DNA of 64,000 nt from Crossiella sp. CA-258035 (GTDB lineage: Bacteria; Actinomycetota; Actinomycetes; Mycobacteriales; Pseudonocardiaceae), in contig NZ_CP116413.1 in NCBI RefSeq assembly GCF_030064675.1, positions 9,081,501-9,145,500 of the forward strand, given 5' to 3'. Positions 29,993 through 45,598 of this stretch are shown one piece after another. A program made the position numbers and the translations under genes. How positions within the stretch are numbered: the stretch's first letter is position 1; the number at the start of each line of letters is the position of its first letter. The notes beneath the pieces were generated by a model. It saw nothing but the letters and a program-made list of their open reading frames with translations. It did not search any database and was not told the DNA's origin.

Positions 29993-30884
29993 CCCGCCGG
30001 GCCTCCGCCGCGGTCACCGGCTCGCCGACCTGGATCCCGTGCAGCACCTGGGCGAGCACCTCCGCACCGCGCACCACCCTGGGTCCCGGCCGGTTGAAGT
30101 AGGCGGGCCCGTCCAGCACCCACACCGCCGACGGGGCCACCTCTGTCCACTGTGGATGGTCAGTGAGCAGGTGCAGCTCGGTCTCGGTCCGTGCAGGCGG
30201 GAAACCGCAGGGCAGCACCAGCACGATGTCCGGCCGGGCCGCGACCAAGAGGTCCCAGTGCGCGGACTTGGTGTGCTCGCCCGCGGTGGCCAGCAGCGGC
30301 AGCCCACCGGCGGCCGCGATCTGCTCCGGCACCCAATGTCCGGCCGGCCACAGCGGATCCAGCCACTCGATCGCGGCCACCCTCGGTTTCCGCCGCCCGG
30401 CCACTGCCGCGCGCACCGCGGCCAGCCGCGCGGTCAGCTCGGCCACCCGGTGCTCGGCCAGCTCGCCGAGGCCGAGCTCCGCGCCCACCAGCTGGATGCA
30501 GCCCAGCACCTGGCCCAGCGTGCGCGGCTCCAGGCTGAGCACCCTGGTACCGGTCTCCAGCACCCGGAGCTCCGCGGCGACCCGGCGGTAGGACAGCGCG
30601 CACACCTCGCACAGGTCCTGGGTGAGCACCAGGTCCGGCGCGAGCTCGGCGAAGCGCGCGGTGTCCAGTCCGTACAGCGAGGAGCCCCGGTGCGCGCCGC
30701 CGACCGCGGCCGAGATCTCCCTGCTGCTCATCCGGTCCTGGTCGATCGAGCTGGTGGTGACCACCGGCACCGAGGCGACCTCCGGTGGCCAGTCGCACTC
30801 GTGCGTGCGGCCGACCAGCTCCGGCACCTTGCCGAGCACGGCGAGGATGTCGGTGGCCGCCGGCAGCAGGGAGACGATCCGCAT
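29985..30884 (-). CDS. Cobalamin-type periplasmic-binding-fold protein (BtuF-like)
   Basis: 299 residues from the ATG at 30884, 7 nt after TACCTT (30897-30892), apparently leaderless. No signal peptide is present. The two-lobe helical-backbone fold of BtuF/TroA-like proteins is shown by '[32 protein letters not shown]', '[19 protein letters not shown]', '[27 protein letters not shown]' and '[13 protein letters not shown]'. No permease or ATPase gene is adjacent. Without an export signal it may sense or carry a corrinoid in the cytoplasm; this is uncertain. Confidence 0.75.
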
Positions 30885-30897
30885 ACGCCAAAAGGTA

Positions 30898-30926
30898 GGC
30901 CCGGGACGCTGGTTGCGTCCCGGGCC
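30898..30926 (-). terminator. Intrinsic terminator of the repeat-protein gene
   Basis: A perfect 11-bp GC-rich stem (30916-30926 with 30898-30908) with a 7-nt loop is followed, reading leftward, by TACCTTTTGG. It ends transcription of the 1200-residue repeat protein gene. The same TACCTT serves as the likely -10 of the BtuF-like gene. Confidence 0.8.
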
Positions 30927-30995
30927 CACCCGAGTTGGTGTTACCGGTCTACGGCCTCCCTGCACCCACTAATGGAAGAGGCCCTGGACCGTTGG

Positions 30996-33900
30996 TCAGA
31001 CGATCGGCAGCTTCGGCATGGTGGGCGCCCCGGGGACGGACACCTTCGGCAGCGCGGGCAGCAGGTTCAGGCCCGGCAGGCCCGCCTGACGCTCGGTACC
31101 CGGCACCGCGGGAACACTCGGCACCGCGGGCACACCCGGCAGCCCGGGGACACCCAGCTTCGGCAGCGCGGGCACGGCCGGCAGCAGGTTCAGACCGGGC
31201 AGGCCCGCCTGACGCTCAGTGCCCGGCACCGCGGGAACACCCGGAACCGTGGGCACACCCGGCAGCCCGGGAACGCCCACCTTCGGCAGCCCGGGAACGG
31301 TCGGCAGCAGGTTCAGACCGGGCAGGCCCGCCTGACGCTCAGTACCCGGCACCGCGGGAACACCCGGAACCGTGGGCACACCCGGCAGCCCGGGAACGCC
31401 CACCTTCGGCAGCCCGGGAACGGTCGGCAGCAGGTTCAGACCCGGCAGGCCCGCCTGACGCTCAGTACCCGGCAGCCCGGAAACATCCAGGTTCGGCAGC
31501 TCGGGCACGGCCGACAGCAGGTTCAGGCCCGGCAGGCCCGCCTGACGCTCGGTACCCGGCAGCGCGGGCACACCCGGGAGGGTGGGCACCGAGACCTTCG
31601 GCAGGGTCGGCACGCTCGGCACCAGCTCGCCGCCGGTCAGCCCGGACAGCACGTCGAACTTGCCACCGGAGACACCCAGCGGTCCGCTGACCGGAGCCGC
31701 GGCGCGGCCCTCGGCACCGGAGAAGTCGAACGGCACGTCGGTCACGCCGGGCAGGTTCTCGCCCAGCTCCTTGTCGGTCACCGGGATCTGCAGCTCGGCG
31801 GGGGCGCCGCCGACCTCCATGTCAGTGGCCTCGCTGGCGTCGGCCATGGCGTTGCCGACGACCTCGACCGGGATGTCGTAGACCTGCGTGACCGCGCCGA
31901 TCGGGGCGAACAGGTTGAAGCCGGACAGGCCGCCACCCTCGGACCCGGTGGTCTCGCCGGTGCCACCGACCACGCTGTCGACCGAGCTGGCGGCCATCGA
32001 GTCGGCCACAGCCAGCGCGGCGACGGAGTCACCGAACGGCTGGACCGCCGCGCCCACGGGCACGTTCACGATGTCGCCGGCCACCGAGCCGCCGTCACCC
32101 GCGGTGCCGAGGTCGCCACCGGCCTTGGTCCCCACCGCGGAGGCGGACACCGCGTCGGACACACCGTTCAGCGAGGCGGAGAGGCCGTTGGCCCCGACCA
32201 CCGGGCTGACCGGAACGGCGACGATGTCGCCACCCAGGAAGCTCATGACACCGTCGGTCACGGTGTAGCCGCCGGCCTCGGACCCGATGCTGTTGTCGGC
32301 CACACCGGAGGTGGTGCCGATCCAGTTCACCGAGTCGCCCGCGACCTCGAGCGCCGCGGCGACCGGCACGGACGCGACCGTCCCGGTCCCAGTGCCCTTG
32401 ACGCCGCTGGTCTCGTTGTCGCCACCGGCCTCGGAGGCGACCGCGGAGTTCTCGGCGCCGTCAGCCAGCACCATCCAGCCCGCACCGATGCCGCCCACGT
32501 TGGTGGGCACTGCCACCGGCACGTCGGCGATCAGGCCGGCCAGGCCGCCCTTGTCGCCAGCGGTGGCCTTGTCGCCACCGGCGACCGCGGCGGTGGCGTT
32601 CTCCGCCGCGCCGCTGGAGTTGACCAGCCAGCCGGCGCCGACGCCCTCGGCCTGGACCGGCCCGGCCACCGCGGGGGTGATCAGGTTTCCGGTCAGCAGA
32701 CCGTAGGAGCCCTCGGAGGTCGAGTTGCCACCGGCCACGGAGGACACGGTGTTCTCGGACTCCGACTCGGACACCACGATCCAGCCACCGGAGATGCCCT
32801 GGCCCTGGATGGGCAGGGCCACCGGGCCGTGCACGACGTTGCCGGAGAGGCCACCGTCGGTGCCGTTGCCGCTCACGTCGCCACCGGCGCCGATGTCGTG
32901 GACGTTCTCGCTCCACGCCTTGGCGACGGCGATCCAGCCGCCGGCGAGGGCGTTCAGCGTGACCGGGCCCGCGACCGGGACGGACACGGCGTTGCCGCTG
33001 CCCAGCGCGTCGTCGTCGATCGCGGTGTTGTCGCCACCGGCCTCGGAGTCCGTGGTGCTGGTGGACTGCGCGCCGGAGTTGATGATCCAGCCAAGGGCGT
33101 TGCCCTCGGCCTCGACCGGCACGGCCACCGGCACCTGGATGCCGTCACCCGCGACCAGCGAGTCGTTGCCGCGGGTGCCGATCAGGCCACCGGCGTCGGT
33201 GGTCGTCTCGGTGGCGGCCACGGCGTCGGAGTTGGCGATCCAGCCGCCGGACAGCGCCGACACCTGGGCGGGCAGGGTCAGCGGCGCGGAGGCGATGACG
33301 CCGGCGATCAGGCTGTTGTCGCCGTTGGTGAAGGCGTCCCCACCGGCGACGGACTCGGTCACCTGGCTGTGCTGCGCGTCGGTGTTGGAGACCCAGCCAC
33401 CGGAGTTGCCCAGCACCTGGACCGGCTCGGCGATCGCGGCGTCGACGATGTTGCCACCGCCGGTGCTCTCGTCACCGTTGGTCATCAGCAGGCCGCCGGT
33501 CTGCGCGGTGCTGGTGGAGTCGCTCACCGAGTCGGCCAGGCCGCCCCAGGCGAGGGCGTTGCCCGCGACGGTGACCGGACCGGCCACGTTCGGCGTGATC
33601 AGGTTGCCACCGATGCCGCTGTCGTAGCCGGAGGTGACGCTGTCCCCGCCCGCGACGGCGTCCGCGGTGGTCGACCCCACGGCGTTGGAGTTGTTGACCG
33701 GGAACACGCCGAGGGCGTTGTTGTTGCCCTCGACCGGCAGGGCCACCTGGCCGTGCGCGATGTTGCCGCCGAGGGACGAGCCCTCGCCGTCGGTGTCGAC
33801 GTTGCCGCCGGCGTCGGCCGCGATGGCCGACTCGTTGTTGGTGTCGGCGACACCCGCCGCGCCGGAGATGGCGTTGCCGGTCAGCTGGACCGGGACCGCC

Positions 33901-34598
33901 AGCGGGACCACGACGCTGTTGCCGGAGAGCGAGGAGTCCTTGCCCGAGGTCTCGATGTCGCCACCGGACTGGGCCTCCAGCATGGACACGCTCTGCGCCT
34001 CGGCGTGGCCCCCCGCGGCGACCGCGTTGCCCGAGATGAGCACGGGCGCGACGCCGTCGACGTCGACCACGTTGCCCTTGATGCTGCCCTTGTCGCCGTT
34101 GGTGACGATGAGCTCGGGCTTGCTGTAGCTGTACTCGCTGACGTTCTCGACGTCCGCGTCACCGGTGGCGGCGATCGCGTTGCCCTCGATGACCACCGGG
34201 ACCACGGCGTCAGCGTGGACCTCGTTCGCGCGGAACGGGTCGGCTTCGCCCAGCTTGGGGGCGTCGTCGGCCTTGGACGCGGTCTTGCTCTTGCCGCCCA
34301 GCTGGGGCACCTTCAGCGACTTGCCCGCCTTGGTGGCCGCGCCAGCGAGGGGCAGGCTCGGCACGACCTCGCGGGTGTCGACCTTGACGTCCTCGATGTG
34401 CTCGGCCGGGAGGTCGACCTCACCCAGCGCGGTGCCCACGGCGTTGTTGTCGAGGTGGATCGGCAGGGTCACCGACGCGGCCAGTGGAGTGGCCGGCACG
34501 TCGGGGTTCTCGCCGGCACTGGCGACGCCAGTGCCGAGGGCGAGCAGCCCACCGGTGACGAGTACGGTCTTCAGACCGCGCTTCGCCCAGATGTGCAT
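30996..34598 (-). CDS. Giant secreted repeat protein with chaplin-like modules
   Basis: 1200 residues. The signal peptide (AKRGLKTVLVTGGLLALGTGVASA) follows AAAGGAGAT at ideal spacing. Residues ~128-890 consist of about fifteen modules of ~51 residues: G-N/D, [VI]xxPVAxPVxxxGN, a small-residue/Trp segment (often GGWI or GWI), a Ser/Thr/Ala/Glu stretch, AGGD/GGN, then TxGxxGxLxGN. The 'GNxVxVPVxVPV..GN' core resembles chaplins, the amyloid surface proteins of streptomycetes, but has no Cys. The last ~200 residues are Pro/Leu/Val-rich, with five copies of 'PGTERQAGLPGLNLL'. No LPXTG or membrane anchor is seen. A secreted surface or aerial-structure protein is inferred. Confidence 0.75.
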   Translation of the reverse strand: MHIWAKRGLKTVLVTGGLLALGTGVASAGENPDVPATPLAASVTLPIHLDNNAVGTALGEVDLPAEHIEDVKVDTREVVPSLPLAGAATKAGKSLKVPQLGGKSKTASKADDAPKLGEADPFRANEVHADAVVPVVIEGNAIAATGDADVENVSEYSYSKPELIVTNGDKGSIKGNVVDVDGVAPVLISGNAVAAGGHAEAQSVSMLEAQSGGDIETSGKDSSLSGNSVVVPLAVPVQLTGNAISGAAGVADTNNESAIAADAGGNVDTDGEGSSLGGNIAHGQVALPVEGNNNALGVFPVNNSNAVGSTTADAVAGGDSVTSGYDSGIGGNLITPNVAGPVTVAGNALAWGGLADSVSDSTSTAQTGGLLMTNGDESTGGGNIVDAAIAEPVQVLGNSGGWVSNTDAQHSQVTESVAGGDAFTNGDNSLIAGVIASAPLTLPAQVSALSGGWIANSDAVAATETTTDAGGLIGTRGNDSLVAGDGIQVPVAVPVEAEGNALGWIINSGAQSTSTTDSEAGGDNTAIDDDALGSGNAVSVPVAGPVTLNALAGGWIAVAKAWSENVHDIGAGGDVSGNGTDGGLSGNVVHGPVALPIQGQGISGGWIVVSESESENTVSSVAGGNSTSEGSYGLLTGNLITPAVAGPVQAEGVGAGWLVNSSGAAENATAAVAGGDKATAGDKGGLAGLIADVPVAVPTNVGGIGAGWMVLADGAENSAVASEAGGDNETSGVKGTGTGTVASVPVAAALEVAGDSVNWIGTTSGVADNSIGSEAGGYTVTDGVMSFLGGDIVAVPVSPVVGANGLSASLNGVSDAVSASAVGTKAGGDLGTAGDGGSVAGDIVNVPVGAAVQPFGDSVAALAVADSMAASSVDSVVGGTGETTGSEGGGLSGFNLFAPIGAVTQVYDIPVEVVGNAMADASEATDMEVGGAPAELQIPVTDKELGENLPGVTDVPFDFSGAEGRAAAPVSGPLGVSGGKFDVLSGLTGGELVPSVPTLPKVSVPTLPGVPALPGTERQAGLPGLNLLSAVPELPNLDVSGLPGTERQAGLPGLNLLPTVPGLPKVGVPGLPGVPTVPGVPAVPGTERQAGLPGLNLLPTVPGLPKVGVPGLPGVPTVPGVPAVPGTERQAGLPGLNLLPAVPALPKLGVPGLPGVPAVPSVPAVPGTERQAGLPGLNLLPALPKVSVPGAPTMPKLPIV
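31084..31550 (-). repeat. Tandem 123-bp repeats encoding PGTERQAGLPGLNLL units
   Basis: The marker GCCTGACGCTC (- strand: Glu-Arg-Gln-Ala) starts at 31084, 31207, 31330, 31453 and 31540, giving three periods of exactly 123 bp (41 codons) and one of 87 bp. The two central units (31207-31452) are almost identical at the DNA level, indicating recent duplication or ongoing homogenisation. All lie in frame within the C-terminal Pro-rich part of the 1200-residue protein. Confidence 0.9.
31930..34217 (-). repeat. About fifteen degenerate ~153-bp modules
   Basis: The coding repeat of ~51 residues is ancient: modules align at protein level (GN...PVAxPV...GN...AGGD...G-N) but differ strongly at DNA level, unlike the C-terminal 123-bp units. 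Boundaries are taken at the conserved Gly-Asn/Gly-Asp pair that opens each module. Confidence 0.75.
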
Positions 34599-34787
34599 TG
34601 TGGATCTCCTTTTGTTGTTCCCCCTGGCGGGAGGGGGAATGGGGTCGGATGGCCGGACGTGAATTCACGTCGGGGCAATCGGCCACCCGGGTCTTTGGGA
34701 TATTTCCGGCACGCCGAATAAAACTGACGTGCACCGGAATGGCGCGATTTCTGCGACCTACGAGAACGGCGGGCGGAACGCCGAGAG

Positions 34788-34845: not shown

Positions 34846-35652
34846 TCAGTCAGGAGTGATGCCGGGCTGCTTGGCCTGCCCGGCGAGCACGCAGTCGGCC
34901 GCGGCGGAGTCCACCGGCAGGCCGTGCGCGTTGTCCAGCGAGGAGTGCATCGGCAGGCAGCCGCCGAGGGCGACCAGCGCCGCGTCGTTTCCGTCGTGTC
35001 CGCACGAACAGGAACCGGGGTTGCTGGTCGGCACCGGCATCGGCAACGGGACCAGCGGGAGAAGTGGAAGGCCAGGCTGGACAGGCTGCGGCAACTGCCG
35101 GGGCGCGTCCTCGACCTGGCCGGGCTTCTGCACCGGCGCCGTGCTCGGCGCGGGTGAGGGGTGGTGGCGATCGGGCTGACTCGCCGGAGCCGTCGCCGCC
35201 GGGTCCACTGGGGACTCGGCGTCGGCGACGGGAGCGCCGTCGAAGTAGGCGGCGTCCCTGGCATACATCCGGGCGGACTGCCCGGCGTTGCTGGTGACCG
35301 CCTCGGTCACCTCGCTGAGCACGGGGGCCTGCTCGAACAGCTTGGCCACGTTGTGCACGGCGTCTTCGATCGAGTTCTCGGCCTTGGCCCTGCGGATCGC
35401 GGGCTGGCTGATCACCGAGGTCGCCTCGCTGATCGCCCTGCGAACGCCCTCGTCCGCGGTGTGGCCGACCTCGCCGACCAGGCCGGTGGCCTGCCCGGCC
35501 GAGCCGCCCAGGACCTGCGCGACGGTCTGCACCGGCTCGGTCACCTGCGGGGCAGGCACCAGCTCAGCGGCGTTCGCCGAACCCGCCGCCACCAGCCAGC
35601 CGACCAGCGCGCCACCGGAGACCAGGAGCGCCCGGGACAGCAGCCGACGCAC
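34846..35652 (-). CDS. Secreted helical/Pro-rich protein with C-terminal Cys cluster
   Basis: 268 residues from the GTG at 35652, preceded by GGGGGGTGG. The signal peptide (VRRLLSRALLVSGGALVGWLVAAGSANA) is followed by an Ala/Val/Glu-rich helical region ('VTEPVQTVAQVLGGSAGQATGLVGEVGHTADEGVRRAI'), a Pro-rich linker and a tail with four Cys ('SCSCGH', 'GGC', 'ADC'). Its domain order recalls the surface protein at 16478 but without the C-terminal helix. It lies upstream of the giant repeat protein on the same strand, separated by a terminator, so the two may act at the same surface. Family not recognised. Confidence 0.65.
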   Translation of the reverse strand: MRRLLSRALLVSGGALVGWLVAAGSANAAELVPAPQVTEPVQTVAQVLGGSAGQATGLVGEVGHTADEGVRRAISEATSVISQPAIRRAKAENSIEDAVHNVAKLFEQAPVLSEVTEAVTSNAGQSARMYARDAAYFDGAPVADAESPVDPAATAPASQPDRHHPSPAPSTAPVQKPGQVEDAPRQLPQPVQPGLPLLPLVPLPMPVPTSNPGSCSCGHDGNDAALVALGGCLPMHSSLDNAHGLPVDSAAADCVLAGQAKQPGITPD

Positions 35653-35810
35653 TCGGCCACCCCCCGCGACATTCTGGTCCGTACCCGGCACGTGCACGCC
35701 TCCGTCTGGAGAATCTTGAGCTGGACAACGCAAAAGATGTCAGACCGAGAAGGCCGCCCGCAAACTCTGCGGCCGAATACCCACTATCGAGTTAATCGGC
35801 TCAAGGTGAC

Positions 35811-38063
35811 TCAGTTTCGTTTCAAAACGCGGGTGGCGCCGGCCGCCGCGGTCGAGGCCAGAATCCAGCCCACCGCGGTGAGCACCACGGATATCCACTG
35901 CGAGGCGCCGGTGATCCGCCACATGTTGTCCTGGCCGAGGGTGACGATCGGCAGCAGCATGTCCGCGGAGAGCAGCCACGGGTTCCACACCGGGTTCTGG
36001 TCGCTGTCCAGGCGTTCGATCGGATACTGCTGCGGCCCGGGATTTGCGCTGTACATCTCGTTGAACCAGATGCCGCCGGCCGCCCAGAAGACCAGCAACC
36101 AGACCAGCGCCAGCCAGGGCCGGTAGCCGTAGCCCACGGTGACCTCCTGCAGCAGGCCCCACAGCCGCCCGGCCACGCCCAGCTCGGTGTAGCGGCGGCG
36201 CTGCTTCTCCAGCAGCACCCGCTCGGCGCGTTCCTCGTGCCCGCCGTCCCGGTAGACGGTGGCCAGCTGCTCGTAGGGCCCCGGCGCGTAGTCCGGGACC
36301 ACGGTGCGCAGCCAGCGCAGCCGGGTGCGCACGTCCACGTCCGGATCGGCCGCGATGCCCTGGTAGGAGAAGTCCTCCAGCTCGACCCCGCCGCTGGCCT
36401 GCCAGAGCAGCTCGCCGTCGGCGACGGTGACCACCTTGGCCCGGTTCAGGATGACCCGGCCCAGCGGCTTCCGGCCGAACCGCACCACCAGCTGCTGCGC
36501 GGTCAGGCCGTAGGCGTTGAGCGCGATCCCGTCCGGCGCGCTGCCCAGCTCGGAGCCGGTGAAGGTGACCATCTTGCCGACCTCGACCAGCCGGACCCGC
36601 ACCCCGCCCTCGGCCACCATGCCCCAGCTGCACAACAGGTCCTTGCCCACGGAGGCCACCCGGGCGTCCAGCGAGGGCTTGATGGTGCCGTCGCCGCGGC
36701 GGCGCGGGTCGGTCAGCTTGGCCCCTGAGCAGTCCAGGGTGGAGCCGATGCTGGCGTTCTGCAGCCGGATCGAGCCGCGGGCGGCCAGGTCGCGCAGGAA
36801 CAGGGTGCCGCCGACCCGGAGCCGGTCGGCGAAGAGCACGTCGATGCCGGGCCCGTGCAGCTGCACCCCGGACAGGCTGGCGCTGCCGTGCACGTAGGCG
36901 TCGACCAGCCGGACCTGCCCGAAGGCCCGCATCCCGCCCTGCCGCTCGAACCGGCCGTCGGCCAGCCGGACCGCCTTGCCGCGGGCCTCCAGGTCGCCGC
37001 GCACCTCGATGCCGTCGGCGAGCAGCGCCACCGGGAACCGCTGCACCGGCTGCTTCTCGTGCTCGGCCTCCAGCACGGCCAGCGCGGTCTCCGAGCCCAG
37101 GGTGGCGCCGACCATGCGCAGGTAGCCGCCGATGCTGGCGTTGGGCAGCCGCACCGAGCCCGCGGCGGTGAAGCCGTCGTCGAGCTGCACGTTGCCGTCC
37201 ACGGTGATCCGGTCGGCCACCAGCGAGGCCGAGTCCAGCGCCTGGCCGTGCGGCACGATCGGCACCGGGGAGTCGGTGGTGGAGTCCTCGGCCTGCAGGC
37301 GGGCGCCGGAGAACACCGCGTCGCCGCCGATCCTGGCCCCGGCCAGCACCACCCGGCCGCTGGCGGTGAACCGGCCGCCGTCGCCGTCGCAGAACAGGTT
37401 GCCGGAGACCACGATCCCGGAGCCCTCCAGCGCGTCCGCGCCCGGATTGCTCAGGTGCGCGCCGCCCAGGTGCACGTTGCCGCTGACGGTGGCCCCGCGC
37501 AGCCGCACCTCGCCGGTCGCGCGCAGCGCGGTGGCCTGCAAGGAGCCGCTGATCCGCAGCCGGGCGCCGAGCAGCGCGTGGTCCTGCGGGCTGCGCAGCA
37601 CCGCACCGGCCAGCCGCAGGGTGCCGCGCACGGTGGCGTCGGTGAGGTCCACGCAGCCGGTGGCGGTGAACCCGGCCTCCAGCACCAGGTCGCTGTCCAC
37701 CTGGAGGTTGCGGCCCTTGAGACCGGGCAGCCGACAGCCGGGCAGGCGCAGGCCGATCAGCTGGGCCATCCGCAGGTCCGGCGCGGTGTCGAAGGTGCAC
37801 CGGGTCAGCTCGATCAGGGTGCGCACGTCCAGCGCCTCCAGGTCGAGGCGGCCGGTGATGGTCGCCCCGGTGAGCCGCAGCGCGGGCATCCCGGCCGGTT
37901 TGAGCCGGTAGAGGCCGGTGAGCAGGCCGGCGAGCAGCCCGGCCCGCACCCTGGTGTCAGGGCTGCCGGGCAGGGGGAGCACCAGCTGCCGGCCGACCGC
38001 GAAGGCGCGGCAGACCGCGCGCTCGACCTCGGTGAAGTCCGACGGCTTCGGATACGGGTCCAT
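35811..38063 (-). CDS. Membrane protein with long right-handed beta-helix domain
   Basis: 750 residues from the ATG at 38063. Residues ~60-560 are bactofilin/pentapeptide-like beta-helix repeats, about 20-30 residues each ('LRLTGATITGRLDLEAL', 'VSGNVHLGGAHL', 'VRLPNASIGGYLRMVGATL', 'IRLQNASIGSTLDCSGAKL'). Residues ~590-640 are a helical segment ('YEQLATVYRDGGHEERAERVLLEKQRRRY'). The C-terminus has two or three membrane helices ('LALVWLLVFWAAGGIWF', 'WISVVLTAVGWILASTAAAGA'). Streptomyces relatives are often labelled membrane-associated oxidoreductase, but I see no cofactor motif. A scaffold role is as likely. Confidence 0.7.
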   Translation of the reverse strand: MDPYPKPSDFTEVERAVCRAFAVGRQLVLPLPGSPDTRVRAGLLAGLLTGLYRLKPAGMPALRLTGATITGRLDLEALDVRTLIELTRCTFDTAPDLRMAQLIGLRLPGCRLPGLKGRNLQVDSDLVLEAGFTATGCVDLTDATVRGTLRLAGAVLRSPQDHALLGARLRISGSLQATALRATGEVRLRGATVSGNVHLGGAHLSNPGADALEGSGIVVSGNLFCDGDGGRFTASGRVVLAGARIGGDAVFSGARLQAEDSTTDSPVPIVPHGQALDSASLVADRITVDGNVQLDDGFTAAGSVRLPNASIGGYLRMVGATLGSETALAVLEAEHEKQPVQRFPVALLADGIEVRGDLEARGKAVRLADGRFERQGGMRAFGQVRLVDAYVHGSASLSGVQLHGPGIDVLFADRLRVGGTLFLRDLAARGSIRLQNASIGSTLDCSGAKLTDPRRRGDGTIKPSLDARVASVGKDLLCSWGMVAEGGVRVRLVEVGKMVTFTGSELGSAPDGIALNAYGLTAQQLVVRFGRKPLGRVILNRAKVVTVADGELLWQASGGVELEDFSYQGIAADPDVDVRTRLRWLRTVVPDYAPGPYEQLATVYRDGGHEERAERVLLEKQRRRYTELGVAGRLWGLLQEVTVGYGYRPWLALVWLLVFWAAGGIWFNEMYSANPGPQQYPIERLDSDQNPVWNPWLLSADMLLPIVTLGQDNMWRITGASQWISVVLTAVGWILASTAAAGATRVLKRN

Positions 38064-38163
38064 TGCCGTTGATCTCACCCGGCAGCGCTCGGATGGGCAA
38101 TAGACCGCCAGGACGCCCCGCGCGTTCCCCCCATGACGACTCGGTCACGGCTACCGTGATCGC

Positions 38164-39336
38164 GTGAGCAGCCGCAGGCAGGTGCCGCCGACTCCGATCC
38201 GGCGTGAGGTTGTGGAACAGGTCCCCTACGGACTCCGGGTGAGCGCGGCGCTGTCCTGGCGCTTCCTCACCCTGTGCGGCGCGCTGGCCGTGCTGGTCTT
38301 CCTGGTCGGCTACTTCGCCGGCCTGGTCATCCCGGTGGGCATCGCGCTGCTGCTGGCCGCGCTGATGGCGCCCGCGGTGCGGCAGCTGGTGTCCTGGCGG
38401 GTGCCGGGCTGGGCGGCCACCACGATCGTGCTGGTGGGCGGGCTGCTGCTGGTGGTCGGCGTGCTGGTCTCGGTGGTGGCCGCGTTCGTCAACGGCGTGC
38501 CCGAGCTCCAGTCCAAGGTGGTGGTCGGCCTCGACCAGATCAAGGACTGGCTGGTGCACGGGCCGCTGCAGCTGACCCAGCAGGACCTGGACCAGTACCT
38601 CAACCGGTTCGTGGAGATGCTCAAGAGCAACGTCTCCACCATCGCCACCAACGCGGTGAACACCACGGTGACCACCGCGGTCGGCGTCGGCGAGCTGCTC
38701 ACCGGCTTCCTGCTGCTGCTGTTCACGCTGATCTTCTTCCTGCACGACGGCAGCAACATCTGGCACTTCATGACCAAGGCGGTGCCGGGCAACGTGCGCG
38801 ACCGGGTGGACGTGGCCGGTCGCCGCGGCTTCGCCTCGCTGGTCAGCTACGTGCGGGCGACCGTGGTGGTGGCGGTGGTGGACGCGGTCGGCATCGGCAT
38901 CGGCCTGGCAATCGTCGGCGTGCCGCTGGCGGTGCCGCTGGCCGCGCTGGTCTTCCTGGCCGCGTTCGTGCCGATCATCGGTTCACTGGTGGCCGGTTCG
39001 GTCGCGGTGCTGGTGGCGCTGGTGGCCAACGGCCCGATCGAGGCGCTGATCGTGCTGATCATCGTGATCGCGGTGATGCAGCTGGAGAGTCACGTGCTCC
39101 AGCCCCTGCTGCTGGGCAAGGCGGTCTCCCTGCACCCGCTCGCGGTGATCCTGGTGATCATGGGCGGCCTGTCCCTGGCCGGCATCCCCGGCGCGCTGCT
39201 GGGCGTGCCGGTGCTGGCGGTGCTCAACGCGGCGATCCGCTCGCTGGTCAACGAGGACAACCCGGACCCGGACTCGGTGGACCCGACCAACCGGGCGGAC
39301 GCGATCCCCAGCGGCAAGGGCGACGAACCTGCCTAA
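38164..39336 (+). CDS. AI-2E family membrane transporter
   Basis: 390 residues from the GTG at 38164, 6 nt after TACCGT (38152-38157) without a Shine-Dalgarno. It has seven to eight transmembrane helices with the family's large loop after the third helix ('GVPELQSKVVVGLDQIKDWLVHGP') and the conserved segments 'AAFVPIIGSLVAGSVAVLVALV', 'ESHVLQPLLLGKAVSLHPLAVI' and 'GALLGVPVLAVLNA'. Members export small molecules or ions; substrate unknown. The stop codon overlaps that of the convergent cyclase gene. Confidence 0.85.
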   Translation: MSSRRQVPPTPIRREVVEQVPYGLRVSAALSWRFLTLCGALAVLVFLVGYFAGLVIPVGIALLLAALMAPAVRQLVSWRVPGWAATTIVLVGGLLLVVGVLVSVVAAFVNGVPELQSKVVVGLDQIKDWLVHGPLQLTQQDLDQYLNRFVEMLKSNVSTIATNAVNTTVTTAVGVGELLTGFLLLLFTLIFFLHDGSNIWHFMTKAVPGNVRDRVDVAGRRGFASLVSYVRATVVVAVVDAVGIGIGLAIVGVPLAVPLAALVFLAAFVPIIGSLVAGSVAVLVALVANGPIEALIVLIIVIAVMQLESHVLQPLLLGKAVSLHPLAVILVIMGGLSLAGIPGALLGVPVLAVLNAAIRSLVNEDNPDPDSVDPTNRADAIPSGKGDEPA

Positions 39337-40544
39337 GCGACCGTGACCAGGTTGCGGCCGGAGCTCTTGGCGGCCAGCAGGGCGGAGTCGGCGGCCACCA
39401 TCAGCTCCGGCAGGCCGTAGCCGTAGCGCGGTGAGGTGGCCACACCGATGCTCACGGTCAGCCCGGAGAGCTCGTGCTCGCGGCCGTCGGTGGCGGTGGT
39501 GGGCACGCGCAGCTGGGCCACCCCGGCGCGCACCCGCTGCGCGGTCCGCTCGGCCTCGCCGGGGGTGGTGTCCGGCAGCAGCACCACGAACTCCTCGCCG
39601 CCGAAGCGGCCGACCAGCTCGCCGTGCCGCACGCTGCCCAGCAGCAGCCTGCCGATCGCGGCCAGCGCGGCGTCCCCGGCCAGGTGGCCGAGCTGGTCGT
39701 TGACCCGCTTGAAGTGGTCCAGGTCGAGCAGCAGCAGCGCGGCGGCGGCCTTGCGGTTGCGGGCGCGGTCCAGCGCCTCGCGGGCCAGCCGGTCCCAGTG
39801 CACGGAGTTGGCCAGGCCGGTCTTGGCGTCCCGCTGGGCCGAGCGCTGCCACTGCGGCAGCTGGGCCGCGCTCTCCAGCATCAGCAGTGGCGGCGCGGCC
39901 AGCAGCAGCCGCAGCGGGTCCTCGGTCATGGCCATCGCCATCAGCCCGCCCAGGCAGACCGCGACCACGCCGACGGTGACGTCCAGCCGCTGGCCGAACA
40001 CGTGCTCCGCCTTGGCCGTCGGGGTGCGCAGCCGCAGGCCGACCGCCACGATCATCGCCCGCACCACCAGCAGGGTGACCCCGGCGGCGATCATGGCGGG
40101 CAGGTCGGTGCGCGGGTCGGCCCAGCCGATCACGGTGCGCGCGGCCAGGGTGGCCAGCGCGGTGGCCGAGGTGGTGAAGATCCAGTGGTGCGGCCGGTGC
40201 CGGGGGCTGAGCGCGCCGTGCAGGGCGGGCCCGAGCATCAGCACCACCAGCAGGTTGCCCGGCAGTGCGAACACCCCGGCGAGCAGGTAGGCCACGTGCA
40301 CCGCCCACGGGCTGCGCTGGGGTTCCACCCGCAGCGCGCCGACCACGCTGGTGCCGATGACCACCAGGGCGGCGGTGGCCACGAGCATGACGAACTTCGG
40401 TAGGTCCTCGGTGCGCGGGGCATGCCCGAGCACCATCAACAGAACCGCGGCGGACACTGCGAAACCGTCAACCACCAGCCAGTACACCAGCGCCGGTCCA
40501 CGCAGTGTCCACAGTGGCCAGTCGCGCAAGACGGCCTCCCCCAT
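39333..40544 (-). CDS. Membrane-bound diguanylate cyclase (GGDEF)
   Basis: 403 residues from the ATG at 40544. Six or more N-terminal transmembrane helices (~15-230) precede a GGDEF domain: 'RDAKTGLANSVHWDRLAREALDRARN', 'LLLLDLDHFKRVNDQLGHLAGDAALAAIG' and the active-site motif GGEEF (~314-318) in 'VGRFGGEEFVVLLP'. The intact motif predicts synthesis of c-di-GMP from GTP. No RxxD inhibitory site is obvious at the usual place and no EAL domain is attached. The ligand sensed by the membrane part is unknown. Confidence 0.88.
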   Translation of the reverse strand: MGEAVLRDWPLWTLRGPALVYWLVVDGFAVSAAVLLMVLGHAPRTEDLPKFVMLVATAALVVIGTSVVGALRVEPQRSPWAVHVAYLLAGVFALPGNLLVVLMLGPALHGALSPRHRPHHWIFTTSATALATLAARTVIGWADPRTDLPAMIAAGVTLLVVRAMIVAVGLRLRTPTAKAEHVFGQRLDVTVGVVAVCLGGLMAMAMTEDPLRLLLAAPPLLMLESAAQLPQWQRSAQRDAKTGLANSVHWDRLAREALDRARNRKAAAALLLLDLDHFKRVNDQLGHLAGDAALAAIGRLLLGSVRHGELVGRFGGEEFVVLLPDTTPGEAERTAQRVRAGVAQLRVPTTATDGREHELSGLTVSIGVATSPRYGYGLPELMVAADSALLAAKSSGRNLVTVA

Positions 40545-40702
40545 GGTGCGGACACCAAGAAACCCGTGGCGATGCGTAGCCGGCCCCCTGCCGACCGTCA
40601 CCCCGCTCAAGGGTGGCACAGATAGTGGCCGTGGACTGCGTCCAAGCGGGGGGATTGGTATGCCGTTGGTGAGGCAGGATGTCTCCCGTGGGAGAGACGG
40701 TG

Positions 40703-41818
40703 ATGCCACTGTGGCGCGCGCTGGTGTGGTTGCGCGTGGTCACCCTGCTGTTCGCCCTCGGCGGGGTGTTGGTCCACCGCGAGCAGTACGAGCGGGAGTG
40801 GCTCGGCTGGGTGGTCTTCGGCGTGATGGCGGCGTGGACCGCGGTCACCGTCTACTGCTACTCCAGGGACAGCGGCCGCCGGACCTCGGTGGTGGTGGCC
40901 GATGTGCTGATCACCGCGGGCCTGCTGCTGGCCTGCTGGTTCGTGCACGACCGGGCCTACATGCTCTCCTCCGCGCCGACCGTGGTCACGGTGTGGGCGC
41001 CGGGCTGCGTGGTGGCCGCCGCGGTGCTGCACGGGCGCGGGCCGGGCATGGCGGCCGGGGCACTCGTGGCCGGGGTGAGCTGGCTGATCAGGGGCCGGTT
41101 CGACACCGACATCGCGCGGGACACCGTGCTGCTGCTCGGGGTCGGCTTCGTCATCGGCCTGGCCTCCTCGGTGGCCAGGCGTTCGGCCGAACAGCTGCAC
41201 CGGGCGTTGCAGGCGGAGGCCGCGACCAGGGAGCGGGAGCGGCTGGCCCGCTCCATCCACGACGGCGTGCTCCAGGTGCTGGCCAGGGTGCGGCGGCGCG
41301 GCCGGGAGCTGGGCGGGGAGGCCACCGAGCTGGCCGAGCTGGCCGGCGAGCAGGAGATCGCGTTGCGGGCACTGGTCTCCAGCGCGCCACCTGAGTCCAC
41401 TGTGGACGGTGAGGTGGACCTGCGGCCACAGCTCCAGTTGCTGGCCACGCCCAGGTTCCAGGTCTCCGCGCCGGCCACCCAGGTGCTGCTGCCCGCGCAC
41501 ACCGCGGCCGAGCTGTGCGCGCTGACCAGAGAAGCACTGTCCAATGTGGACGAACATGCCGGTGCGCAGGCGCGGGCCTGGGTGCTGGTGGAGGACCTGG
41601 GCGAGGAGGTCGTGGTGAGCATCCGCGACGACGGCCCCGGCATCCCGGATGGCCGGATCACCGCGGCCGAGGCGGAGGGACGAATGGGCATCGCGCAGTC
41701 GATCAGGGGACGGGTGCAGGACCTGCATGGCACGCTCGCCCTGCACACCGGCGCCGGGGAGGGCACCGAGTGGGAGGTCCGCATCCCGAGGCAGACGAGC
41801 AAGGGGGGAAGGCGATGA
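40703..41818 (+). CDS. Sensor histidine kinase (NarL-type partner)
   Basis: 371 residues from the ATG at 40703, 6 nt after GGGAGAG; the ATG at 40679 is an alternative start. Five or six transmembrane helices (~5-155) precede a HisKA_3/MacS-like dimerisation region with phospho-acceptor His ~186 in 'LARSIHDGVLQVLARV' and a HATPase domain ('REALSNVDEHAGA', 'IRDDGPGIPDG', 'RMGIAQSIRGRVQDLHGTL'). The stop overlaps the start of the response regulator (ATGA). The stimulus is unknown. Confidence 0.88.
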   Translation: MPLWRALVWLRVVTLLFALGGVLVHREQYEREWLGWVVFGVMAAWTAVTVYCYSRDSGRRTSVVVADVLITAGLLLACWFVHDRAYMLSSAPTVVTVWAPGCVVAAAVLHGRGPGMAAGALVAGVSWLIRGRFDTDIARDTVLLLGVGFVIGLASSVARRSAEQLHRALQAEAATRERERLARSIHDGVLQVLARVRRRGRELGGEATELAELAGEQEIALRALVSSAPPESTVDGEVDLRPQLQLLATPRFQVSAPATQVLLPAHTAAELCALTREALSNVDEHAGAQARAWVLVEDLGEEVVVSIRDDGPGIPDGRITAAEAEGRMGIAQSIRGRVQDLHGTLALHTGAGEGTEWEVRIPRQTSKGGRR

Positions 41819-42474
41819 GCGAGCTGAAGGTGACCGTGATGGTCGTCGACGACCATCCGATCTGGCGCGACAGCGTGGCCCGCGACCTGGCCGAACGCGG
41901 ATTCGAGGTACTGGCCACGGCAGGCGACGGGGACGCCGCGGTGCGCATCGCGCGGGCGGTGCGCCCCGACGTGGTGCTGATGGACCTCAACATGGGCGAG
42001 ACCTCCGGCGTGCAGGCGGCCGGGCTGATCACCGCGGAGCTGCGCGAGACCAGGGTGCTGGTGCTCTCCGCCAGCGGCGAGCACGACGACGTGCTGGAGG
42101 CGGTCAAGGCCGGGGCCTCCGGCTACCTGGTGAAGTCGGCCTCGGTGGAGGAGCTGGTCGACGCGGTGCGCCGGACCGCGGCCGGGGACGCGGTGTTCAC
42201 CCCGGGCCTGGCCGGGCTGGTGCTCGGCGAGTACCGGCGGATGGCCACCACGCCGGACGGCGGACCGGCCGCGCCGCAGCTGACCGACCGGGAGACCGAG
42301 GTGCTGCGGCTGGTGGCCAAGGGCCTGACCGCGCGGCAGATCGCCACCCGGCTGGTCATCTCGCACCGCACGGTGGAGAACCACGTGCAGTCCACCCTGC
42401 GCAAGTTGCAGCTGCACAACCGGGTCGAGCTGGCCCGCTACGCCATCGAGCACGGCCTGGACGTCGAGGAGTGA
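41815..42474 (+). CDS. NarL/LuxR-type response regulator
   Basis: 219 residues. The receiver domain has the acidic pair at Asp12/Asp13 ('VVDDHP'), phospho-acceptor Asp57 ('VLMDLN'), and Lys107 ('YLVKS'). A LuxR-type HTH follows ('LTDRETEVLRLVAKGLTARQIATRLVISHRTVENHVQSTLRKL', ~150-195). It is translationally coupled to the upstream kinase and presumably phosphorylated by it. Targets are unknown. Confidence 0.92.
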   Translation: MSELKVTVMVVDDHPIWRDSVARDLAERGFEVLATAGDGDAAVRIARAVRPDVVLMDLNMGETSGVQAAGLITAELRETRVLVLSASGEHDDVLEAVKAGASGYLVKSASVEELVDAVRRTAAGDAVFTPGLAGLVLGEYRRMATTPDGGPAAPQLTDRETEVLRLVAKGLTARQIATRLVISHRTVENHVQSTLRKLQLHNRVELARYAIEHGLDVEE

Positions 42475-44944: not shown

Positions 44945-45598
44945 GTGAGACGACCGACCGGCCTGGCCACGGCCGCCACCCTGGCGGTGACCTGCACGGC
45001 TGCCCTCGGCGCCGGATCAGCCGCAGCGGCCGGAATTGACCCCGACGAGGCCGCGCCGGGCATTCCCGCGAACCAGTCCGACCCATTGCCGGAATTCCCC
45101 GACCCGGCCCGCCGGGCGCCGAACCACCTCGGCGACTACGTGTGGCTCGATCGCAATCGCCCGCCCCGGACGGGCCAGCCGTCAGCGGTGAACCGGCTGG
45201 GCGACTACGTGTGGATCGACTCCAACCACAACGGGCAGCAGGACGCGCCGGAGCCGGGTGCGCCGGAGGTCACGGTCACCGTGCTCACCGCGGCAGGCGC
45301 CGAGGTGACCAGCACCACCACCGACGCCTACGGCACCTACCAGGCCGGCGAGCTACCGGACGGGGACTACCAGGTGTGCGTGGCGCTGAAGAACCTGCCG
45401 CCGGTGGTGGCCGAGCACATGCCGGGACCGCCGCACGCGGGCCAGGACACCGCGGACTCCGACGCCGATCCGGCCACCGGCTGCACCGAGCCGGTGCGAC
45501 TCGGGCCCGAGCACCGGGAGGACCGCACGCTGGACATCGGCCTCGGCCGGGACTACGTGTGGGTGGACAAGCCGAAGGGCCGCCACCTCCCCAGATGA
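44945..45598 (+). CDS. Secreted protein with SdrD B-like repeat
   Basis: 217 residues from the GTG at 44945, with GGGAG upstream. A signal peptide (RRPTGLATAATLAVTCTAALGAGSAAAA) precedes a linker and a SdrD-B/Cna-B-like domain: 'LGDYVWIDSNHNGQQDAPEPGAPEVTVTVLTAAG', 'DAYGTYQAGELPDGDYQVCV'. The motif 'GDYVW(L/I)D' occurs twice and a shortened 'RDYVWVDKPKG' ends the protein, as if adjacent domains had been lost. Such domains bind calcium and stiffen surface stalks. No wall-anchor motif is present. Confidence 0.75.
   Translation: MRRPTGLATAATLAVTCTAALGAGSAAAAGIDPDEAAPGIPANQSDPLPEFPDPARRAPNHLGDYVWLDRNRPPRTGQPSAVNRLGDYVWIDSNHNGQQDAPEPGAPEVTVTVLTAAGAEVTSTTTDAYGTYQAGELPDGDYQVCVALKNLPPVVAEHMPGPPHAGQDTADSDADPATGCTEPVRLGPEHREDRTLDIGLGRDYVWVDKPKGRHLPR

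Follow-up and report, generated by a model that had tools for sequence, protein, structure and literature searches.

In this work, we have used computational approaches to characterise a giant cysteine-free protein encoded in a 64,000-nucleotide stretch (the window) of the actinomycete Crossiella sp. CA-258035, a member of the Pseudonocardiaceae (contig NZ_CP116413.1, positions 9,081,501 to 9,145,500). Our profile comparisons show that this 1200-aa protein, whose reading frame starts with ATG, carries about 15 tandem copies of a module homologous to the chaplin domain. The reading that we favour, with moderate confidence, is that of a secreted giant relative of the chaplins (a 'poly-chaplin') that would serve as a scaffold of solenoid type at the surface of hyphae or spores. 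A surface role is suggested by a putative signal peptide, MHIWAKRGLKTVLVTGGLLALGTGVASA, typical in its pattern by eye and kept across genera in the consensus of the family alignment A1, together with the acidity of the module array (88 Asp/Glu against 10 Lys/Arg). A preliminary description of this gene, made from its letters alone, had announced a cysteine-free giant of about fifteen chaplin-like modules, perhaps not described before, from the Pseudonocardiaceae, and all of this stood: the 1200 residues include 0 Cys, the module hidden Markov model (HMM) finds 15 full modules, and the A1 profile matches 149 of 200 genomes of the bacterial family. No description of such a protein was found among the titles and abstracts listed, most subscription papers lying outside that search. 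The partial module, the tail repeats and the leader hairpin presented below did not figure in the preliminary description.

The homology with chaplins is best seen when profile is compared with profile. Aligned by hhalign, 412 modules of the protein family and 40 distinct chaplin domains gave a probability of 96%, an E-value of 4.7e-9 and a score of 36.4 over 36 columns. A G/A/V/S-rich repeat might have come to resemble chaplins through compositional convergence, as would fit the low-complexity composition of the 1200-aa protein and its Pfam score under the cut-off. We consider this highly improbable, since composition-preserving column shuffles scored 7.2 ± 1.4 (maximum 11.7) and never reached the observed value (0/200), the reversed profile scored 14.7, the Cys residues of relatives are located at the chaplin site, and Pfam ChpA-C is above its cut-off in relatives; on the shuffles, chance or composition was rejected as the source of the likeness. 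Removal of the Cys-bearing rows left the score at 34.6 (390 Cys-free rows). Our module profile was built from 458 modules of 32 proteins (L046, L072, L073, L074 and L082 being excluded) and was searched against 1265 open reading frames (ORFs) from 30 loci chosen for holding ChpA-C matches, 28 of them from one genus, taken as Streptomyces; it matched classical chaplin ORFs with best-domain E-values of about 1e-9 to 4e-6 (at least 44 rows, among the matches listed). An alternating hydrophobic strand, V-x-V-P-V-x-x-P-V-x-V, occurs in both profiles but is less pronounced in that of the modules, and two Gly-Asn (GN) positions are conserved in the module profile (GN1, G 0.90/N 0.78; GN2, G 0.80/N 0.48). 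All 40 chaplins have Cys at column 24, which is so by construction because they were extracted via a Cys-containing pattern. This does not apply to the family modules, 26 of 462 of which carry Cys: of their 43 Cys, 16 occupy the Cys site of the chaplins (columns 24-25), and 15 of these 16 have a partner at columns 36-40.

Searches with the Pfam model PF03777 (ChpA-C) gave results that depend on the member examined. It matches 26 of the 30 aligned family members at E <= 0.01 (best E 7.1e-26), and 55 of 120 Pseudonocardiaceae genomes hold some match above the cut-off, most of these, among the matches listed, sitting in open frames of about 1000-1400 aa. In the Crossiella genome itself no ChpA-C match is above the cut-off; 9 of the 14 matches at E <= 10 fall in the gene studied here. 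Single matches in this genome are at noise level, as at E <= 10 a control also matched 5 of 14 genomes, and of the ORFs listed for the two best other loci (L005 and L006) none encodes a chaplin-like protein. For the 1200-aa protein, NCBIfam offers no model. At E <= 1e-6 the A1 profile covers 39 of the 46 Pseudonocardiaceae genera sampled; in 43 of the 149 matching genomes the best E is weaker than 1e-50, the others being spread over 27 genera. In the class sample it matches 41 of 296 genomes, 2 of them Pseudonocardiaceae.

A partial module (residues 124-155), separated from the signal peptide by a linker of about 95 residues, opens the array and is followed by the 15 full ones (residues 166-931); successive module starts lie 50-53 residues apart, except for the first gap of 42. 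Pairwise identity among the modules averages 35% (range 17-51%), so the array is old and diverged. Relatives retain the array at 31-89% identity, so it is not due to chance. In the Crossiella relative L050 all 15 modules find their best match in the same order, whereas in eight homologs from other genera only 5-8 of the 14 module steps increase in order, so that outside the genus the succession of individual modules is not clearly preserved. The tail contains a tandem repeat detected by Tandem Repeats Finder (TRF; a 123-bp unit in 3.5 copies, window 31057-31485), and neither an LPXTG motif, a sorting signal nor a membrane anchor was seen in it by eye. Its length is 269 aa here and 119-149 aa in four Crossiella relatives. 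An ORF of 1560 aa on the plus strand (30039-34721) was read as the antisense shadow of this GC-rich gene.

The AlphaFold2 model (predicted local distance difference test, pLDDT, 85.6; predicted template modelling score, pTM, 0.83) is 66% strand in a pattern of about 51 residues. According to this model, the modules are predicted to fold jointly as one continuous beta-solenoid with one rung per module, its turns falling at the GN position known from chaplins and at the GG connector. A Foldseek search of the PDB returned 15 matches, none at E <= 0.001. Two PDB sequence matches, 8zxl_X and 9c9u_A, were set aside as low-complexity, collagen-like matches of the tail.

Proteins of other actinomycetes link this family to the chaplins. 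In Nonomuraea gerenzanensis L137, a locus that came from a plasmid collection, and in its relatives of family f83, there are 4-8 modules, most with CG or CGN, with connectors of the GG-N-xTSG type, and the chain ends in a hydrophobic segment with basic residues; the ChpA-C score reaches 179 bits in L137 and 149 bits in L141. In further families of the order, a single genome carries L073 and L074, with 10 and 7 modules, and L082 has 6. Loci of family f100 contain 6-10 modules that all lack CG, and by eye their ends resemble LAxTG; one of them, L147, lies just under the ChpA-C cut-off (20.7 bits). Tandem modules and GG-(N/D)-xTxG or similar connectors are common to L137, L141, L073 and the 1200-aa protein. 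The former three start with MRTWAK (L137, L141) or VNIWLRR (L073), score 149-225 bits with ChpA-C and have 8-10 modules, most with Cys, against 15+1 modules and no Cys in the Crossiella protein, in whose tail no counterpart of their C-terminal hydrophobic segment and basic end (membrane or sortase type, by eye) was seen. The Pseudonocardiaceae arrays are set apart by having 13-19 modules in which Cys is rare or absent, and none of the 15 tails compared showed an anchor; no Cys-poor array of 13-19 modules was seen outside this family among the 31 class-sample loci L137-L167. The AGGD element, taken in the preliminary description as an addition to the chaplin core, is by this comparison a general connector, since Cys-bearing poly-chaplins such as L137 also carry it in the GG-N-xTSG form. 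The AlphaFold2 model of L141, from a 9-row alignment, was unusable (pLDDT 33.9, pTM 0.39), with strands in a similar pattern.

Upstream of the gene, a 261-nt stretch reaching the first codons shows 92% mean column identity among five Crossiella. It contains a leader hairpin with an outer stem GGGUGGYCG:CGRCCACCC, an asymmetric bulge of about 8 nt ending in GCCCC, and an inner stem GACG:CGUC; the fold of the 126-nt leader has a z-score of -3.64. A motif similar to the second, smaller hairpin TTCCCCCTCCCGCCAGGGGGAA, CCC-GCAA-GGGAA, is found by eye in several genera. The hairpin model R1, trained on 14 sequences, has a single strong match in the 9.17-Mb genome (55.4 bits), the next best having an E-value of 0.057, and none of the ten weaker matches (E 0.057-4.2) has a family gene downstream. 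At E <= 1e-3, R1 gives 38 matches in 36 of 150 Pseudonocardiaceae genomes. Twelve of these are training-set sequences, and three more (G001, G002 and G111) equal the window's score of 55.4 bits. Directly upstream of a family gene or a related secreted gene lie 35 of the 38, namely 29 loci (L209-L237), the own match and five placed by coordinates, and the other three (G638:C22, G095:C10 and G001:C42) adjoin no listed family gene. All 29 loci have a gene 24-47 nt downstream, starting with MxxWAKR/MxxWARR in 26 and being the MKTWT(Q/K)RVAQ secreted gene in 3. This different secreted gene, MKTWT(Q/K)RVAQIALVSTGLLA, is preceded by the same hairpin at L083 3393-3447, at L077 3459-3523 (+) and also at L227; in L083 and L077 the hairpin adjoins a module-less family member. 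The hairpin is not general, or was lost to stricter filters, since R1 matches nothing in 114 of the 150 genomes, many of which carry the protein. Besides the own match, 197 class genomes gave 6 weak ones (E 1.5e-4 to 7.1e-4), 5 of which had no family gene among ORFs of at least 80 aa starting within 150 nt. Rfam had no match at gathering score in the window, its best sub-threshold match being at 20.1 bits (E 0.61).

Compensatory change was seen in the hairpin stems. Over 27 distinct rows, in an alignment fitted to the model, 92.5% of the cells are paired, while slid controls pair at 30-43%; double-change cells number 19, compared with 4.0 in shuffles. The unfitted alignment A4 gave 86.8% pairing and 11 double-change cells against 4.6 in shuffles, and its 6 double-change pairs were also reached by 58 of 500 shuffles. 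From its position, asymmetry and compensatory change, the hairpin is more likely an RNA element than a DNA dyad, and it may control translation or stability of the mRNA.

The features of the locus are collected in the following table. An AI-2E transporter gene is nearby in 20 of 23 array loci, 7 of 10 module-poor loci and none of 4 loci of other kinds (L072, L073, L074, L082); since this neighbour is common to array and module-poor loci, the locus is probably ancestral in the Pseudonocardiaceae, and the arrays may have shrunk in some lineages. The GGDEF gene is nearby in 6 of 23 array and 9 of 10 module-poor loci; for the histidine kinase the counts are 15 array loci and 3 module-poor ones. 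Apparent array loss was observed at L075, L077, L078, L079, L080, L083 and L085, where the family N-terminus is retained with 0-3 modules and an AI-2E gene is near 5 of the 7; at L072 (4583-6080) a family member is broken into two reading frames. Just upstream of the gene lies a 295-aa protein with a signal-like N-terminal part (34846-35733, minus strand), kept in Crossiella and in L061 and L063. Further genes code for a 755-aa protein with a weak pentapeptide-repeat match (35811-38078, minus strand), kept in 12 non-Crossiella loci, and an SdrD B-like domain protein (44945-45598, plus strand), another possible surface protein.

Features of the poly-chaplin locus (positions in the window)
Feature	Position	Strand	Basis
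Poly-chaplin-like protein, probably secreted, 1200 aa, 0 Cys	30996..34598	-	ORF, modules, homologs
Putative N-terminal signal peptide, residues ~1-28, MHIWAKRGLKTVLVTGGLLALGTGVASA	34515..34598	-	by eye and cross-genus consensus
Module array, residues 124-931, 1 partial and 15 full chaplin-like modules; predicted beta-solenoid	31806..34229	-	
Pro/Leu/Gly-rich tail, residues 932-1200, ~41-aa repeats with GTERQAGLPGLNLLP	30999..31805	-	TRF and tail comparison
Ribosome-binding site AAGGAG	34606..34611	-	16 aligned leaders, all with GGAG and nearly all with AAGGAG
Second small hairpin TTCCCCCTCCCGCCAGGGGGAA, between leader hairpin and ribosome-binding site	34618..34639	-	
Leader hairpin, asymmetric 5' bulge, 46 nt upstream of ATG	34645..34692	-	
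AI-2E family transporter (PF01594), syntenic, divergent	38164..39336	+	
GGDEF diguanylate cyclase, neighbour in some genera	39333..40709	-	
Histidine kinase (PF19354/PF02518) and LuxR-type response regulator	40673..42474	+	

What could such a protein do at the cell surface? We propose that the 1200-aa chain would leave the cell via its signal peptide and fold into a stiff, acidic beta-solenoid, the hydrophobic Pro/Leu-rich tail holding it in the envelope without covalent anchoring. There, at the surface of hyphae or spores, it may form or nucleate a coat that is fibrous and chaplin-like, one covalent chain doing what chaplins achieve by assembling many small subunits. This scaffold reading is supported by the lack of any ChpA-C match above the cut-off in the own genome. 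Several results weigh against it. The protein taken alone scores 15.2 bits with ChpA-C, below the cut-off of 21, it has none of the two conserved Cys of the chaplin domain, a third GN motif was not found in the module profile, no sorting signal was seen, and the modules are less hydrophobic than chaplins (grand average of hydropathy 0.09 for 412 family modules, 0.27 for those of the window and 0.37 for 40 chaplins). Constraint is weak, the ratio of nonsynonymous to synonymous rates (dN/dS) among five Crossiella being 0.41-0.77, fast for a structural protein. Moreover, 10 of 42 fetched loci hold module-poor or module-less versions and 51 of 200 Pseudonocardiaceae genomes have no family match, so the protein is dispensable; a classical short chaplin (85 aa, L087) was confirmed in at least one genome of the family, G077; and the solenoid might stay in solution without ever forming fibres.

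Other modes of action have to be weighed. The short chaplins stack between molecules in cross-beta fashion, and the preliminary description had called the giant amyloid-type; as a true functional amyloid it would be a multivalent nucleator, an idea compatible with the scaffold that we regard as a real but lesser possibility. The alternating strand is common to modules and chaplins, the open rung ends of the solenoid could stack, and, in the accessible text of PMC3079736, Cys is dispensable for chaplin fibrils in vitro and ChpE is without Cys, so that fibres are not excluded by the loss of Cys. Yet the confident single-chain model satisfies the strands inside the chain, and the modules, besides being acidic, do not reach the hydrophobicity of chaplins. 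An amyloid character is therefore no more than a possibility, since the modules are predicted to form one continuous solenoid; of the two observations that the preliminary description had named as speaking against its reading, an absent chaplin relation is contradicted by the profile comparison, while a beta-helix-like model was indeed obtained. A solenoid adhesin or a fibre resembling a surface layer (S-layer) on vegetative hyphae, chaplin-descended and serving attachment, biofilm or shielding with no role in aerial growth, seems to us unlikely. To return to the scaffold, a bolder form of it, which we regard as doubtful, is that the Pseudonocardiaceae fused chaplin domains into one covalent beta-solenoid showing one chaplin-fibre layer (domain as rung, turns at GN), replacing the multi-gene chaplin coat, under a previously unknown family-specific leader RNA.

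Chaplins are hardly described in the Pseudonocardiaceae. The accessible text of a 100-genome survey (PMC4255298) names them in Streptomyces relatives and a few others and, in that text, no Pseudonocardiaceae member, although its genome set included Saccharopolyspora, Amycolatopsis, Saccharomonospora and Actinosynnema. Being chaplin-derived, encoded in a syntenic locus and strongly matched in 27 of the 46 genera sampled, the giant is a testable surface-coat candidate for this family, and the leader hairpin offers a separate new handle on the regulation of its gene.

Among known systems, the beta-solenoid surface proteins RsaA (S-layer) and antigen 43 show no sequence match to the 1200-aa protein, whose 51-residue pattern with one strand of about 20 residues also found no significant Foldseek counterpart. 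CwpA and CwpB of Actinoplanes missouriensis are likewise hydrophobic surface proteins that substitute for chaplins outside Streptomyces; in the accessible text of PMC13251363 they have no chaplin domains according to its authors, and they are sortase-anchored, unlike the 1200-aa protein. The Streptomyces chaplins ChpA-H are secreted, as the giant would be by its putative signal peptide, and share with the modules a homologous core of about 36 columns, SGN-x-V-x-VPV-x-x-PV-x-V-x-GN-x-V-x-V-x-G, with its alternating beta strand. They have one domain (short) or two and a C-terminal sorting signal (long), whereas the giant has 15+1 modules with no anchor seen, GG-(D/N)-xTxG connectors, no third GN and a predicted single solenoid. 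Some of its homologs pair Cys at chaplin-like positions; conversely, as far as the accessible parts of PMC3079736 and PMC13251363 tell, the conserved Cys pair is absent in ChpE and one ChpB domain, and ChpH without Cys failed in aerial growth (PMC3079736). In chaplins GN lies at the turns between strands (PMC13251363, accessible text), as in the AlphaFold2 model; if the solenoid model is true, the 1200-aa protein would be a single-chain stand-in for the chaplin fibre.

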